DNA of 64,000 nt from Protonemura montana. Lineage: Eukaryota; Arthropoda; Insecta; Plecoptera; Nemouridae. The notes below the pieces were generated by a model. The model worked only from the letters and a program-made list of their open reading frames with translations. It did not search any database and was not told the origin of the DNA. The DNA is taken from assembly GCA_947568835.1 (NCBI GenBank), contig OX387608.1, forward strand, positions 10,268,001 through 10,332,000. Reading direction: 5' to 3'. Both the position numbers and the translations under genes were made by a program. This document shows positions 3,751 through 52,400 of the stretch, piece after piece; positions within the stretch are counted from its first letter, which is position 1; each line of letters begins with the position of its first letter.

Positions 3751-4475
3751 TCACTGCCCCGTGCTGACCGCCATGGGCCCAACAGCTTCCGAAGGGTGCA
3801 AGAACATCTTGACCCTCTTCGGCTCACCAGCAATGTTGGCATTGGAGTCTGTGACCCCAGGTGCGCTCTCCTCTGCCGCCCTCGCCGCCAACAAAGTTAT
3901 CTGATTCACTACATCCTCCATCTCGTGCGTCAACCCCGACGACGGCGACACCGACGTCGGCGGCGTCGCGGCGCTCAAATGCCGTCCACGGATCGCCAAC
4001 GGCGGCGGCGGAGGCGGTGGATGCAGCAGATACGCGTTCCTCTTCTTTCCATGCACCTCCGTGTCACAGTGTTGACGAAATTCGAGTATCGTCTTAGCTT
4101 TCTTAGCCCCGGGACAGATCTTACATTCGTAGACAGTTTGCGTGAGTCTTATTGCCCCTCGATTATCGGCGTGTTTCCCTGGGAAGCATGCGGTGCGTTG
4201 GTGTCCAAGCAGACCTGTTTCGGAAGGGTACGCCAGGCGGCACTTCTTGCAGACAAACCCCACCTCCACTAGGGTTTCACGGGCAAACGCTGGGAGTGGA
4301 GCGCCCACTGGCTCTTCTAGAGTAGCGACTCGCAGGGTGGTAACTCCAGGCTTGCTGGCCGACGCGTCTTCGTTGATTTTCTGCAACGTCTCTTGGGGGA
4401 GCTGGAGCATAGAGAGGGGTGTCCCGGATGTCCCTGGGAGACTGTTTGGTGGGTCGAAGAGCCCTCCTCCTCCTG
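3751..4475 (-). CDS. ZFHX: ZFHX coding exon 4: C-terminal two zinc fingers and stop
   Basis: Encodes residues 3410-3650. The strong acceptor TTCTTGTTCTGTTCACAG ends at 4476, and phase 1 matches exon 3 (split codon G|CA). Two terminal fingers, CKKC...HQRTAC (about 3485-3506, C2HC) and CKIC...HCDTEVH (about 3527-3551), match the last exon of vertebrate ZFHX3 (VCRKCQ...SHLKSLC and CLACESA...HLESALH). A proline run (HPPPPPPPPL) follows, then a Ser/Ala-rich tail and TGA at 3753-3751. The acceptor is a tandem NAGNAG (CAGCAG), so a one-residue variant starting at 4472 is possible. Assignment to the gene 44 kb upstream rests on homology, strand and phase; no competing exon 3 or exon 4 is visible. Confidence 0.9.
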
Positions 4476-10400: not shown

Positions 10401-13400
10401 ACAAATTAACAAATAAACTCGACGACGACGCCGAGAGGAAAAGTGTAAAATCAGACCCTAAATTAACAGAGTCGAGCTTCTTTAAAGGGGTGATACGCAA
10501 ATTAGGGAAAGATTGTTAATTCAGACTTGAAGCTGCGGCTTTAATTTCAAGCGTCAAGATTTTGTAATACGACGAAATCATAAATAGAATATTATGTCAT
10601 TTTGGTTTTAATCTGTTAGCAAGTTGAAGAACTGCGTTTGATAAATAAACGTGATCATAATTGTTTGTTTCGTTTTTGTTATCTTAAGTGTCAATTATGT
10701 CCACAAAATTAATTATGCAGTCTCATTAATGAATTAAATACATAAAAGTAGGTTCTTAAAATACTTTTAGCCAATAAATAAATGCATTGGTATTGAGATC
10801 TAAAAAAATTAAATCGCCCCACACTTGAAGTTTCATCAATTTCTTGACCACCGAACCATGTTCGACCATCAGTTTTCAATCGGAAGCTCCTCCAAGCCCA
10901 TCTTGCACATCCAAATCTTGTGCCAGGTATGAAACTTGGCCAGGTCTATGCGGGTGATGATGCCGATCACTCTGTTCGTGTCGTCGACCACCACGAGATG
11001 CCTCAGACCAAGACCTCGAAAAAGACGGAAACACTTTGCCAGCGAAGCAGACGCCTGCACGGTAAACGTCGACTGACTCATGAAAGGCTCAAAGTTGATC
11101 CTCATTTCTCTTGTCTCGTCGTCGGCATTCATTAACATTTCCCGATGCCGTCGTGAAAAGTGTGTATGAAAAATGTCAGGGTTTAAAGTTTCGATGTCGA
11201 TTCCTCGTTCCAGAAGGTAAGAAAATTCTACGATAACATATATTTGGGAGCGTAGTATGAGACCGCAGAACGTTCCTTTTTTCGACTTTATTGGAAATCC
11301 GTTGTGATAGGTTTCTCGCAACACGTCCAGTATGTCGCCGACACGATGAACTAGGTTGAAGCAGATGACGGGCTGCGACATGAAGTCACTGGCAACGATT
11401 GCAGACGTCAACGGTGGAGGATCCCAATCCAGAACGGGTATCTTCTGCATCTGGAGGATCACGTCGTAGATACTGTAGGGGACGAGGAGGTTTCCAACCG
11501 CAGTGGCTACGATCACTACAACGATTAACGGCAGCCCGAATGACAGATCTCCGGTAGTCTCCATGGTGATGACGGTAAGCGACAACGTCATTCTCATGAT
11601 GCCGGACATTTGCGCACAAGCGCCAAGAATGGCGTATTTTCCTGGGTCGGCCGCCCACGCCACTGAAGGAAATGACTTGTAGATTACTAACCCCAAGAGT
11701 CGACCCCAGCTAGCTCCAATTAACAGGCTCGGAATAAAAAGACCTAGCGAGATTTTCAGCCCACTCGATAGGACTGAAAGCACGAAAAACATCGCCAAGA
11801 AAATTCCGATTGTCTCTTCTGAATATTCTGTCGGTCCTGAATGGAACATTGCTCTGATATCCGCTTGGAAAGTTTGAAGCCAGAGGCTGCTTCCAGTGTT
11901 GTAGCTTCCTGCGCTGCATTTCATTTGAGCTCCTGCCAGTTGCCACTCTCGAGCAGTCTTGAATATCGGGCTGCACTCCTCTGTGGCATAGACGACGGTC
12001 AGCCCCATAAGAGCGCTCACGAAGGCCACAACGCTGGCTTCGAGCACGTACCTTATTTTATGTTCGGACATATTTTGTCTCAGCATTGACAGATGGTAGG
12101 ACAAGAAGTTAAATAGGGCACCAACGACCCCACCGATTATACCGATTAACAAGAAAATGGGCATCTCCGCCAAATGCCACGGGATGCTTCCAGTAAATTT
12201 TCCGAGATTCAACAATTCGTCGGCACTTAGTTGGCCGAATTTCGTAATGTACAAACTCAAGAAAAGATTTAAGAAGAACGTTCCGTTTAGGGTAGCGAAA
12301 AGAGTTCGCACGACGTGAGATTGCTTCCAGAAGCTCGATGTCTCTTCAAGGGTAAAAAGGACTCCTCCGATCGGAGCAGCAAATGCAGCGGAGACTCCAG
12401 TTCCAGCCCCAGCTGCTGCAAAATCTCGTTTCTCACTGTCTTCCCGGAAATAAGACATCCACTTCAATTCCATCTTCAACAACGAACTTCGTCCTTGAGA
12501 CAATCCCCCTCCAATGATCGTTCCGGCGTGGACCATTGGTCCTTCTTTGCCAACCCCAAGACCTCCGGCGATGGCACAAATCACGCTCACCAGTTTCACT
12601 GCCAACGTCCTCATGTTGACGAAATGACGCACGTTGATGCCGTTCAGGAAGGCTTTCACTCCTGCGACACCGCTGCCAGCCGCGATTGGTTCGACGTACA
12701 CGACCAACGCAGTGCCAACTGCCACGAGGATCAAGTTCGAGCATGTCCAGATAAGCATAGGGATTGCAATGCAATTCAGCGTGGAGCATTTGCTAATATA
12801 GTGCCTGATGTTATCGTGTTTCAGGTTTGAAAAAATGTCGAGACCAATTTCAATGCATGCCCCCGCAATGGCCGTCGAGAAACCAATAAGGAAAAATATA
12901 AACCATCTGAGTAGTTCTGTTTTGACGGTGTATGCGTATCCTCGTTGCTCTTCAGCGCGTCGTGTCAATGTGTTCTCACATTTGTCATAATCGAGGCACT
13001 CGTATTTTTGCGAAATCGTGTGTGACATCATCTTATATTGAGCTCCATGATCAAACACTGACATACTAATGGCATTGCATTGTCAGGTTAATATATGTCA
13101 TCAATAGCATTGCACGTAATCCGTTAAATTATAAAATCTAGTGTCCTTAGAATGGAAAACACTTACGCTTAAAATTCTCGTTCGATAGGTGTCAAAAATA
13201 CTAAGACGTCAAGTTTTGAATTCTTGGATGGCACAAGAGAATAATTATTTCATGCAACGGCCACTTTGATCTACTATATTTTCATTCGCATCATCATTAT
13301 GACACATGTGATCGACTCTGACCTTTGCTCTGACCAAGCCGTGGTCGCTTAAAACTATTATATTTTTGGTGGGGACCTTCAACGTTAAAAAAAACTATCG

Positions 13401-46400: not shown

Positions 46401-49400
46401 GTTTGTGAAGATTCTTCTGTTGTGTACCGGTGCAAAAGGTGTGTGAAAGATTTGAAAAGAGGTTCGGTGTTGTACTCGATTACAAAGTGTTTAGATTAAA
46501 CAATGAGATGAATGAGGAGCGTGTAGGCAACTAAATCTTTGATAGGACCGCGCGGCATCGGTACATGTTTTAATCGTTATTTCGACCACGAATTCCTCGG
46601 CTTTTTCCAGAAGATTTTTCCTGTTTCACAGCCAACTTTTTACTGTCGTTTCTATCTGAAATAGCTCATTTTCTAAAAGGCTTTTGTGCTTGTTTAAAAG
46701 GTAGTACACAAGGATATTTGTGTTAAAGCCGTGACGAATCGGCGTGATAAGTTGAGTGAAAAGCAGAAAAAAATATCTAAATGAAAACAAATTGAGATTT
46801 TTAGATTTTTAACTGGCTACACTAGTTTTGGTGAAGTTGATTTGAGTCCTTAGGATTCTAGAAAATTGTCTTTATACTTAGGTGTAAAGGTTGCCAATAA
46901 GGAAATGATAAGTTAGTAGTGATAAATTGGTAATAGTTAGTGTATCGAGGGATTTAGTCATAAACTATATTACTTTCAATTATATCTCAGGGATAATAGA
47001 TTTATTCACATTATTCTAATCAGTACGTTATCTTTATACACGAGCACATGGCGAAATAATAAAGGTAAAAAAAGATGTTTCCTATATCTCAGAAAAACAA
47101 TACAAAAACAATTATTCGTATAATATAAAAAAAGAATAATAAAATATCTTTGACTTTCTAACAATGTGATAAATAATAATTAGCTATACATTCACAAAAT
47201 GTCTGTCATTGTAATCAAAATTAGGGTTTTAAATTATTTATAAATAATTTTCGTTCGCCGTTTTATAGTCGCTGCGATTCTGAACCTGATTGGCGTTTAC
47301 GACGACCAATAAATGCAAAGCAACAATACACAATTAAATAATTACCTCTAAAATCAACAACACATCGCCGAGCTATCTTGACAAACACTGTTCAGGCATT
47401 CCATTATAATCAGCCAGCCTCATTCACAAAACTTATTTACACTTGTGGCAAATTATAATAATTGTTTCGTCTCGTATAGGTTGATTAAAAATATGATTAC
47501 GACCCATAAATCATAAATGTAATTTTTGTGTCCATTTTTCACGAAGCACCTTAGGTGATGTTTCGTTGTAATCACCTTGACCCCTCTCTAACATCTCCTC
47601 CCTGTTCGTCTCGCACGACTTCGGTCTTTTAGCTCCGAGAGGCGAAAGCCAAACAGTCCCGAAACTGTGGCGTCCGCCCATCAGAGCTGACCCCTCATTT
47701 TATCAATAAATTAATCTCATCAACTCATAAGTAATCCCATCTTGACAAGCATGCTCGCCCGATCTCGGCACTGGGGTGACAATTCACAGGACATGCTAGC
47801 AGCCTACATTCACACACGTCGCTTAAAGAATTCAAATTTGACTTTGTTTTATAAACCAAAAATTAACAAGTTCACTACAGGTCGAAGATAATATTTTGTA
47901 CTAACAGATTTATGAGGTATAAATTAAAAGAAAAAAATAAACAAACAGTTTGGTTGAAATCAGTGAACAGAAATAATTGAGAGTTGTCAAATAATAAAGT
48001 GCAGTTGTCTTCAAAATCATAGTTGTCATCGCACTTTCATGGATAATCGCGTAATTTTGACACCGTCAGGTAAAGTTGGATTGTTTTCTCTGGCACTCCA
48101 AAAGAAAAGTCAAAAACGAAACCAAAAAAATCTCGTCAAAGACTTTTAATTCGACTCTAATTCTGAAACAAACAGATGTATGTTTTTTTTTAAAAACTGT
48201 GTACCGACAAAAAAAAAAAAAAAATACATGCAACTTGGAAAAATTAAGAAAATTGTTAGTTCTGTTTAAAATAAATAAATAAACAGGAAAAATATTAAGT
48301 TACACACATGTAATGAACTTATTAACGCTGGTCCAACATATTTAAAAGAACTGTTGACTGAACTCACCATTAGCGCCAAACATAGCCGGATGCAGGAACA
48401 GGTTCCCCTGTGGGAAACCCGGGATGCCCATCCCGTAGAGTTGCTGCAACAGCGCCATATCCTCCGGTCCAGGCGCCGGCGACTTGGATCCTCCGTGTTG
48501 CTGATCCTTAGCCGCTGCAGCCATCGCCATCGTCAACGAGTTGGGCAGCGTCATGCCCGAAGCGGCAGCCATCTGCAGCATCTGCAGCTGCGCTAGCTGT
48601 TGTTGTTGCTGCTGTTGCTGCTGCTGCGCATTTCCGCCCACGTTGTTAAACTGCTGCGGCGGCGTCGCTGCCGTCGTCGAGTCGGCGTTGATAGAGGAAC
48701 CCGGCACGGGAGGGGGAGCGATAAACTCGCCGTCGCTGTTGTTGCCCGACGCGTCGGCGCTTGCGTTCTTGCCGTTCTCGAGGTGCAGCTTCACGTTGTC
48801 GATATGTTTCTTGGTGAAGATGTGGTCTTGTATCGAGTACTTGTGCGAGTATTTGAACTGGCAGAGTTTGCACTCTTCCGGTTGGCGCGCGGCGTCGATG
48901 GCAGACTCCGGTCCGCCGAGAGCTTTTTGAAGAGCGAGCTTGTATTTCTTTTCCTTGGCACGCGCATTTTGGAACCAAACCTGTACCACGCGTTTCTGCA
49001 GACCGATCTCTCTGCCCAGCATCTCGCACTCGGCCATTGTGGGCGTCTTGTAGTCGCCGAACAACGACTTCATCGCCTTCACTTGAATGCTGCTCATCTG
49101 CGTGCGGTATCGCTTGTTGCCGCCTCCACCGCCACCTGAAGACAGATTGCGCTGGTGCCCACTCTGCGTCGACGACGCCGGCGACGCTGGATTGCTTTCG
49201 TCACCGTCCATCATGTCCATGTTCATGTCCATGGTCATCTCCATGCTGTCGTCGTCGTAGAAGATGCTACGTTCGCTCAGGTCGGTGAACGGTCCCTGTT
49301 CGGTCATCATGCCGTGCTCCATGCCTACTTCGTGCTTCATCGGCCGACTCAGATCGACGGGTTTGCTCAGGTCTAGGGGAGCGTCACCGCCGACCCTCTC

Positions 49401-52400
49401 GCCGCCTTCCCCACTCGGCTCCTGCTTGATTTTCATCGACAGATCGGCGCCTTCTTTGACGCCGTTCTGCGCCGCGTGGTGAGCTTGAAGCTCGGTGATG
49501 TATCGCTTCATTGACTCCTCATAGTACTTCTTTAGCGAGTTCTCCATGTCTTGATGAAATGGCGGGAACAGCGGCGGCATCATGTTCGGCGTCGGTGTCG
49601 TCGAGCCGCCAAAGTTGTTAGGCGTCTTGGCGCCGTCACCCATGTGCGACGAGGTGTACGACGTCGACTCCATGCTGAGCTCCTCGTCGGGTAAGGCGTC
49701 GATGTTGATCTCGCCGCGAGTGCACTGGTCCGCGTGCTTGGTCACCAAGTGCGATTCCAGTGCAGACTTTACTTTGAAGAGCGCTGGACAGAACGGACAA
49801 CGCTTGTTAATCACTTGAGCATGTGCACGGAATTGCCCTTTTCGTTCCCGTGCACGAGTGTTCTGAAACCACACCTGGACAACGCGCTTCTTGAGGCCCA
49901 CTTCCCTAGCGATGTTCTCTAGCATCTTCCTCGACGGATTGCTCTCGAGCTGGTACTTTTGGTACAGGTAGTCAAGCTGCTCGGGCAAGATCGTCGTGCG
50001 CAAACGCTTATCTTTCGGCTGGTCGCAGTCGCGGTCCATGGCGTCGTCATACTCGTCGAACTTGCGCTTGTTTGCCGACAGCATCGACGCCAGAGGGTGC
50101 GGCGAACCGGCCGAGGATCCCATCGACAGGTCGGCGACGCCCATACCGGCCATCTGCTGCTGTTGCTGTTGCTGCTGCAGCTGGGCGTGTTGTTGCAGGA
50201 TACCGAACGGGCTGTCGGGTGGATATGACGGGAACAGGTTGGGGTTCATGATGTGCACGAGCTGGTGCTCCCGCCAGAGATCGAAGCGCGGGAACACGAG
50301 GTTGCACTTGTCGCATTGAAACGTCCCTTCCTTGGCCTCGACGGCGCTGTTCGACGCGTTGCTGGGCACAGGCGACGGAGGGTAGGGCGTCACCGAAGGC
50401 GTCGGCGTCACGGCTGGTGCTGGCGTCGTAGGATTGCTGGTCGACAGCGGCTGTTGCAGCTGTTGTTGACACTGTTCAGAGATGCTCGAGTTGGAATCTT
50501 CGGACGAGAGGACGGCTGCTATCTGCGCAGCCGCCGCTTGCGCCTGAGCTGACCGCTTGGCGTCTTCCTCCTTGAAGCAGTGCGTCTTCTGATGTCGGAT
50601 CAGCTCGTAGTAGCGCTGGAAGACCAGCAGACACTTCTTGCATTGGTAGTTCAGGCCGGGCGTTCGTTGAAATCGGTTCGCCTCGGTTTCGCCGACTCCC
50701 GGAGGCGTTTCGACGGGTGGTTGATTTTCATACACCTTCCTCGCCTTCTGCCTCGCGTTTTGAAACCAAACGACGATCACGCGCGGACTCAGTCCGAGCA
50801 GCTTTGACAGGTATTCGAGATCGTCGTCTTTGGGGTAGGCGTTGTTCTCGAAGAACTCTTGCAACACTTTGATCTGATAGTCGGTGAAGCGAGTTCTGTT
50901 GGCGCGTTTGCCCGACGAGCCTCCCGAAGAGTTGCTGCCGTTGCTGTTGCCGCCGCCGCAGCCTCCGGTTAGCGAGGCGTGGCTAAAGCCGTCGGAAGAG
51001 TTATTGTTGTACGATCGGCCTGGACTCAGACTTCTTCCTGAAGACATGGGCAGACCGGGAGAGGTCGGCACTTGCCCGCTGGGACAGTAGTTGGTCGGCG
51101 TCATCTTCGGCGGCAGCATGGTCGAGGTTACTGTCATGTTGGACATGTTGGCATTCGCCATTGTCATCGCGTCCGTGCCGAGCTGGGAGGCGATGATCGA
51201 TGTCAGTGTCAAACGATCGGGTGATGACATTCGAGGTGATACCTGTTCATTGAATGAACCAGATACAGTGCTCACAGGACTTTGTGGGGGTTGGTGTAAA
51301 TTTTGCATTTTCTCATCGGGTAAGTCTCTAATGATTCTTTCAGCCTCTTTCCTATGCTCATTCATGAATAAATTGTTGAACTTGAGATCCTGATTGTCGT
51401 CCTGTGATACGTTCGGATCTCTCGGCTCAACTTTGATCATTTTTGGCGTTTCGGGAAAGGGCTGAGGTTGCGGAAAGGGCTGCGGAGTAGACTGTTTTCG
51501 TTTGTTAGTAGAAGGTGGTAACTTCGGGGTGAACTCTTTAACCGGTGGAGGTGGCGGTTCGTCCGAGCTGCCGCTACTGTTCAACGGCACCGTCTTCGTC
51601 TCGCCCGTCTTCTCGTACTCTTCGAGATTCAGCGTCGTCGACGGCGGATTGTTGAAGTTGTACGGCGAATCTTTATTGCGTTGTCGCTCCTTGAACAGCG
51701 TGTTTCGGAACCAGTGTTTGATGACTTTCGGTGGTAAACCACTTTGACTGGCCATCTCGTGGATCTGCTCTTCGGACGGCGAATTGTTTATGTCGAAATG
51801 GGCGCGTAAAATCTTGAGCTGATCGTCGGTGATCCGCGTGCGGGCTCGCTTCTGCTGTGCGGCAGAAACCTGCGTGGTAAACACACAAGGCACATGTTCT
51901 AGACAATGTCGGGAAGACGAATCCGGCGCGTAAAACGTGGTGACGACGAGTTACGGCCGGGACTAGCTTTGTGGGAAAGCCGGGAAATAATGTGACTGCT
52001 TGGAAAAGCTGTATGAAAGCAGTATCAAACTGTATGCATAATTTCCATACATGCAAATCCTTGCATTTTCATAGGACATTAATTATGTCTTGACTTATGT
52101 TATGACCATTTTCCGGAATATTAATATAAGTGCATTCACCTAGAACAACACGGGTCAGCAGCGATAACTCTGCCGCTTTTTTCTATTTGTATAATAAAAT
52201 AATTAAGAACTAAGTGAAATCCTCCAGAACTGTTTAATTGCATTTGCAATCTAAAAAAAACAGCTTCTTATCGCAAGTTAAATAAATAAACAGTGAGATT
52301 TACTGTTCTCTCTAATCAAGATAAGAATAAATATATTGCTGACACTTGGTGGAGGTGCCGTGATTCCAATCAAATATCGCCTAAACCTGTCAAACGAAAT

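Follow-up and report, generated by a model that had tools for sequence, protein, structure and literature searches.

An intronless ClC-7-type frame lies within the last intron of a ZFHX gene

The window that we analysed is a stretch of 64,000 nucleotides from contig C11 of the 258.5-Mb Protonemura montana genome. It contains exons of a ZFHX gene and, in one of its introns, a long open frame of the ClC family.

48368–51755, minus strand: ZFHX penultimate coding exon with three homeodomain stretches (extent as given by the ATG-initiated open reading frame).
4476–48367, minus strand: ZFHX last intron, 43,892 bp, phase 1, GT-AG (from exon frames and splice sites).
10869–13064, minus strand: single-exon ClC-7-type exchanger frame, ATG to stop, 731 codons plus stop (from Pfam and solved relatives).
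3751–4475, minus strand: ZFHX last coding exon, with two C2H2-like patterns seen by eye.

In the host Pfam found three homeodomain stretches in one exon frame, C2H2 fingers, and a ZFHX3-type finger (PF24056) in another exon frame; no Pfam family was found in the last coding exon. The intron begins at the donor ATG/GTGAGT (intron start 48367) and ends at the acceptor TTCACAG/CAGG (end 4476), and the exons that flank it join in frame as MFGAN-AGGGGLF. The ClC frame lies wholly within this intron and on the same strand as the host. A preliminary description of the window had given the coordinates, strand, intron length and an intact, intronless frame of 731 codons, all of which were borne out by our ORF and splice-site check.

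We found 64 stop-to-stop ORFs of at least 85 aa overlapping the intron, a count that takes in the ClC frame itself, those lying within it or on its opposite strand, and those over the flanking exons. Ten long ORFs outside the ClC frame and the exons were searched with Pfam for further genes and none reached a curated cut-off (SRTM1 had 20.1 bits against 27, and Spt4 15.8 against 25). No Rfam family reached its gathering score in the 64-kb window.

Beyond its donor the penultimate ZFHX exon reads on for 8 codons before a stop (window 48150–48367, minus strand), and the same strand carries an ATTAAA 217 nt downstream of the donor. A short ZFHX form made by intronic polyadenylation is therefore possible. 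Since the sense strand of the intron holds 44 AATAAA and 35 ATTAAA motifs, one match carries little meaning.

The nested protein has no internal stop in its 731 residues, and Pfam recognises Voltage_CLC (E=1.5e-67) and CBS (E=3.4e-14) in it. Its top solved relatives are the ClC-7 chains 7jm6 (3e-177) and 7bxu (1.7e-175), followed by ClC-6 (1.9e-116), ClC-3 (4.5e-58) and ClC-2 (3.5e-48) structures. By these PDB ranks, and by the tree described below, the protein is nearer to ClC-7 than to ClC-6, ClC-3/5 or ClC-1/2. Similarity to human ClC-7 (7bxu) spans nested residues 16–727. Both CBS domains had been described as present; CBS2 is clear (residues 661–710), while the first is weak, since Pfam counted a second CBS stretch only at E≤1. 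Chicken ClC-7 gave two CBS stretches in that search, and the C13 protein (see below) one. An AlphaFold2 run on the nested protein together with six exon pieces of the C13 gene returned a mean pLDDT of 44.7 and a pTM of 0.29, a model too poor for a fold search. An alignment with all 12 C13 exon pieces misplaced several short exons and was left out.

An intron-bearing ClC-7 gene is present on another contig

Animal ClC-7 genes are usually intron-rich, human CLCN7 included. A search of the same genome for the ClC family returned 21 exon-level matches: the nested frame, five on contig C13, three on C4 and 12 on C16. With the nested protein as query 13 matches were obtained (itself, eight on C13, two on C4 and two on C16), and no second intronless ClC copy was among them. 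Chicken ClC-7 could be spliced onto C13:5353804-5360844 as 12 exons separated by 11 GT-AG introns in the aligned part, with 409 of 697 positions identical in this splice-aware alignment and an acceptor-like site directly before the first aligned exon. The C13 ClC-7 is 58.8% identical to chicken ClC-7. All 11 of its intron positions map within the nested open frame, which has no intron. The intron-containing CLCN7 that the preliminary description had suggested looking for elsewhere in the genome is thus present, with no fewer than 11 introns across the portion aligned, an outcome that favours the retrogene reading; this presumed parent (C13) and the nested copy (C11) lie at different loci.

By our view of the exon alignments, the C4 ClC gene reads as ClC-3-like and the C16 matches as ClC-2-like. 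The 12 ClC exon matches on C16 (6503417–6532286; loci L011, L012 and L013) fall at three adjacent places on one strand, and resemble a tandem array of some three ClC-2-like channel genes. The OSTM1 family gave three exon matches above cut-off in the genome.

Other features of the genome were seen along the way. An uninterrupted, divergent guanido-kinase-like frame of 426 aa lies on the minus strand of locus L021 (1432–2712; match C14:1346286-1346726), and arginine kinase genes on C12 and C16 are apparently intron-bearing; the C14 frame is perhaps another old retrocopy. Exact 30-base TTAGG repeats have 6912 forward and 6102 reverse placements genome-wide, overlaps counted. The placements listed, all on C1, lie at about 0.9–1.1, 11.6, 14.2, 16.5 and 21.6 Mb, so at least some are interstitial. 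These repeats, TTAGG being the one telomere type searched for, point to an arthropod, as does an arginine kinase whose best match among single-domain chains is 5zhq (482 bits), with 8yx0 'Pro c 2.0101', a crayfish allergen name, just behind (476.5 bits); the two rows ranked above these were two-domain kinases, each matched in two stretches.

Likelihood tests pair the nested copy with the genome's own ClC-7

We aligned five sequences: the nested protein, C13 ClC-7, chicken ClC-7, human ClC-7 and human ClC-6. Identity of the nested protein is highest to C13 (43.7%), followed by chicken ClC-7 (42.1%), human ClC-7 (41.7%) and human ClC-6 (34.4%). In the maximum-likelihood tree nested and C13 proteins were paired with bootstrap 99, and the AU test gave this pairing p-AU 0.988 and rejected the alternative placements (0.020 and 0.019). 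The ranking was unchanged on gap-free columns (674 sites; 0.988 versus 0.020 and 0.016). The gap-free sites among the first 600 columns (545 sites, the membrane part and the start of CBS1) gave 0.991 versus 0.017 and 0.009. The CBS part alone (169 sites) gave 0.81, 0.17 and 0.27 and does not resolve the placement. Starting trees made without tree search placed the nested protein outside C13 plus vertebrate ClC-7 in all three of these data sets, an arrangement that the AU test rejected on both the 674-site and the 545-site sets.

These results bear on the possibility that an intron-poor ClC was acquired horizontally from another eukaryote or a virus. Such an acquisition would account for the single exon, and the identity of the nested protein to C13 and to vertebrate ClC-7 is indeed similar (43.7% and 42.1%). 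However, in the likelihood tests, the CBS part alone excepted, its partner is the ClC-7 of this genome, and 40 sites are shared exclusively with C13 against 29 with vertebrate ClC-7 (C13 and vertebrate ClC-7 exclusively share 73). Viral contigs, scanned with this one protein in a search that detects close relatives only, gave two pattern matches, none related. We consider a horizontal origin highly improbable.

The nested branch is 1.06 long compared with 0.303 for C13, about 3.5 times as long, with a shared stem of 0.205; given this long branch, the placement rests on five sequences and a single parent from this genome. Taking the shared stem and the C13 branch as a crude clock with one parent sequence, a rough inference is that the copy arose about 40% of the way from the vertebrate–arthropod split to today. 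This would make it an old gene and predicts its presence in related orders.

The nested frame has probably been kept open by selection

A comparison of dN/dS had been proposed for the nested and parental genes. We carried it out and obtained no ratio, since synonymous change is saturated: NG86 gave a dN of 0.57 and an unusable dS (−1), and maximum likelihood a dN of 0.46 and a dS of 16.8. Differences between nested and C13 frames amount to 0.47, 0.32 and 0.70 at codon positions 1, 2 and 3, and 104 of 149 fourfold sites differ. We therefore claim no dN/dS ratio.

When the nested frame was substituted at random down to 53% identity, the simulated copies carried a mean of 22.2 stops and a minimum of 11 across 200 runs; at 40% identity all 200 simulated copies carried at least 17. 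The simulations used substitutions only, with no indels. Where the four other proteins are invariant, the nested one keeps 172 of 257 residues, compared with 124 of 417 matches to C13 at variable sites (Fisher p=2.7e-21). The GC3 of the nested frame is 0.555; the GC of the rest of the intron is 0.382, and GC3 is 0.624 in C13 and 0.69–0.72 in three ZFHX exon frames.

One might suppose that the frame is a processed pseudogene that has stayed open by accident. The nested branch is faster than that of C13 (1.06 versus 0.30), and 85 of the 257 invariant residues have been lost. Yet a copy drifting without constraint would be expected to carry the stops seen in the simulations, and the conserved sites have been retained preferentially. 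We give very little credence to an accidental open frame. The long selection that had been suggested for the copy is supported by a frame that is open at saturated synonymous divergence and by the preferential retention of invariant residues. Most likely the nested gene has encoded a protein through most of its existence while being less constrained than its parent, and it is very probably a working coding gene. Since the changed invariant sites include P207 and Y505, its activity may be altered or reduced.

Origin of the nested copy

We examined the flanks for the scars of retroposition. A poly(A) remnant and a target-site duplication are hallmarks of young retrocopies, although they do not define one. 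No A-run of seven or more was found within 1.5 kb downstream of the frame, and direct repeats between the 600 nt upstream and the 1200 nt downstream stood at chance level only (four shared 9-mers against 4.6 expected, one 10-mer against 1.4, and no 11- or 12-mers). The A-tract remnant or target-site duplication that the preliminary description had looked to as a trace of the insertion is thus not found beyond chance. As the copy is very old, lost scars are expected, and their absence neither proves nor refutes retroposition.

The absence of scars would also suit a duplication of ClC-7 at the DNA level with later loss of all introns, for example by recombination with cDNA, and sequence alone cannot discriminate between the two once the flanks have decayed. 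Such a duplicate would have had to lose at least 11 introns while the C13 gene retained them, and the intron that houses the copy is an unrelated one on a different contig. We regard this course of events as very unlikely. The reading of the frame as a retrocopy is instead supported by the intron-bearing ClC-7 on C13 and by the likelihood tests that pair it with the nested copy. We are highly confident that the frame originated as a retrogene, and it is likely that it is both a retrogene and a working coding gene.

The end of a nested transcript may be marked by either of two motifs.

10607–10612, minus strand: candidate poly(A) signal ATTAAA, 256 nt past the nested stop (consensus match only).
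10540–10545, minus strand: second candidate poly(A) signal ATTAAA, 323 nt past the nested stop (consensus match only).

Alternatively the frame could be an exon of a larger transcript, either one with a spliced 5′ untranslated exon or an alternative ZFHX 3′ end. An AG stands one base ahead of the nested ATG, and splice acceptors near start codons do occur in genes with introns in their 5′ UTR. There is, however, an in-frame stop 7 codons upstream of the ATG, so that the nested frame has no contiguous upstream extension. Moreover, the ZFHX donor is in phase 1, and by eye joining it to the AG before the ATG would put the nested frame out of register. We consider membership in a larger transcript unlikely; its form with a spliced 5′ untranslated exon is compatible with a retrogene.

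In the retrogene scenario, a spliced mRNA of the intron-bearing ClC-7 gene now on C13 would have been reverse transcribed, and the cDNA would have inserted in sense into the last ZFHX intron on C11, where selection would have maintained it as a coding gene ever since. We infer that a promoter of its own would drive an unspliced or nearly unspliced mRNA whose 3′ end would lie inside the host intron.

The nested protein retains the exchange residues and has changed at a regulatory site

We compared the nested protein with human ClC-7 residue by residue (human numbering below). Two of the substituted codons lie as follows.

12663–12665, minus strand: codon 134, GCA (Ala), at human ClC-7 Pro207, turning GSGIP into GSGVA (alignment).
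11157–11159, minus strand: codon 636, TTT (Phe), at human ClC-7 Tyr715 (alignment).

The preliminary description had credited the frame with all ClC pore motifs. The gating glutamate E247 (nested E174), the proton glutamate E314 (nested E241), Ser204 and GxFxP are indeed kept, whereas GSGIP is not full: Ser204 remains with Ile206Val and Pro207Ala. The GSGIP form is typical of ClC-7 and Ser204 is its functional core, but the motif is not what defines descent. Among the human positions that we examined the nested protein keeps S204, L213, G215, G240, E247, P249, D282, K285, R286, E313, E314, F318, Q321, G512, F514, P516, R526, Y602, D603, R717, R762 and R767. It has changed, with C13 having the human residue, at I206V, P207A, G315T, M332L, P470F, Y505S, D595N, F597L, E599P, G600S, Y715F, P716S and Y746F. 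R120, T283, G347, V513, V596, I598 and L601 differ from human in C13 as well.

With the gating glutamate, the proton glutamate, the selectivity serine and GxFxP all kept, the activity of the nested protein is most likely still an exchange of Cl− for H+. Transport could also be affected by the changes in GSGIP and at Y505; Y505 is listed among pathway residues in the relevant part of a preprint (PMC12621692).

The same preprint describes, in the section cited, a PI(3,5)P2 network of D282, K285, Y715 and R717 (PMC12621692), and the passage cited from PMC11261146 is concordant on the roles of Y715 and K285. Three of these four residues are kept in the nested protein, and the fourth, Y715, is Phe. 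In human ClC-7, Y715F raises the current and speeds activation, nearly like Y715C, and Y715C abolishes PI(3,5)P2 inhibition, the lipid test in the part cited being of Y715C (PMC9242644). In helix alpha1 (707–715) F711 alone is kept. Given Y715F and the eroded alpha1 helix, we put the loss or weakening of the PI(3,5)P2/CBS brake at about an even chance; one position counts for little as evidence in a protein with 56% of its residues changed. A further substitution, Y746F, tells us little because ClC-6 also has Phe there, although Y746Q accelerates ClC-7 gating in the experiments described in the passage cited (PMC3882054).

The nested N-terminus has about 15 residues ahead of the first aligned residue (human Leu89). 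According to the section cited, the human N-terminus bears dileucine lysosomal signals (PMC8833911); the short nested N-terminus is without that region and localization may differ. Altered localization of the nested protein is a tentative prediction, and we lean somewhat against it.

Provided that the gene is expressed, the conserved ClC-7 with introns would be accompanied in this animal by a second exchanger, a fast-evolving retrogene with Y715F, the change that removes slow gating in human ClC-7, and the pair would offer a natural experiment on the need of ClC-7 for the PI(3,5)P2 brake. The altered regulatory site, absent from the preliminary description, is to us the most interesting part of the locus. 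A bolder proposal has two parts: that a second ClC-7 escaping PI(3,5)P2 control, the natural equivalent of gain-of-function variants at human Y715, has been kept by selection in particular cells, and that nested sense transcription decides between an early ZFHX end, without the last-exon fingers, and the distal one. As a whole we hold this to be rather improbable. The ZFHX exon lost upon early termination by the nested gene would be the last one.

Comparison with known ClC-7 proteins and nested genes

Compared with human ClC-7 (7bxu), the nested gene shares Glu247, Glu314, Ser204, GxFxP, Tyr602, CBS2, Lys285, Asp282 and Arg717, and differs in its lack of introns, GSGVA, Y505S, Y715F, Y746F, the eroded alpha1 helix and the short N-terminus. 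The C13 gene, its closest paralogue by likelihood, differs from it in having at least 11 introns, a shorter branch and conserved P207, Y505, Y715 and Y746.

Retrogenes nested in host introns are already known, Mcts2 in H13 being an example, and the ClC-7/ZFHX instance adds to that kind a long-lived, sense-nested retrogene in a developmental regulator, where transcript interference is testable. Among the matches listed in the open-licence PMC literature, no title reports a ClC-7 retrogene in ZFHX. Mcts2 is transcribed in the same direction as H13. It is a retrogene of Mcts1 in intron 4 of mouse H13, and its transcription causes early polyadenylation of the host in the account given in the part cited (PMC13309782). 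The nested ClC-7 resembles it in lying wholly inside a host intron with the ancestral gene elsewhere, and the theme of that system, as far as the cited part goes, is a conflict of nested transcription with host 3′ ends. The preliminary description had held that a sense-nested gene must avoid ending the host transcript. This is too strong, since Mcts2 does cause early H13 polyadenylation in the passage cited (PMC13309782); a nested gene need not spare its host and may regulate it, and the choice of ZFHX end that we propose is modelled on this case. The cited part presents Mcts2 as mammalian and imprinted, with a CpG-island promoter and measured expression, unlike the nested ClC-7, which is very old, encodes an ion transporter and is known here from its sequence.

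Nested genes are common: figures that the cited section of PMC4394429 takes from others put them at about 10% of genes in Drosophila and about 1% in humans, with two thirds lying antisense to their host. In insects the TipE cluster lies in the last intron of CG18675 and includes Teh3, a retrogene of a Teh4-like gene; by the passages cited, the nesting is retained in most species examined and lost in two, a beetle and a moth (PMC3240667). As with the TipE cluster in those passages, an ion-channel-related gene has long been kept within an unrelated arthropod gene, in its last intron. The cluster described there comprises several genes whose orthologues occur in many insects, whereas the present case is one gene in one genome.
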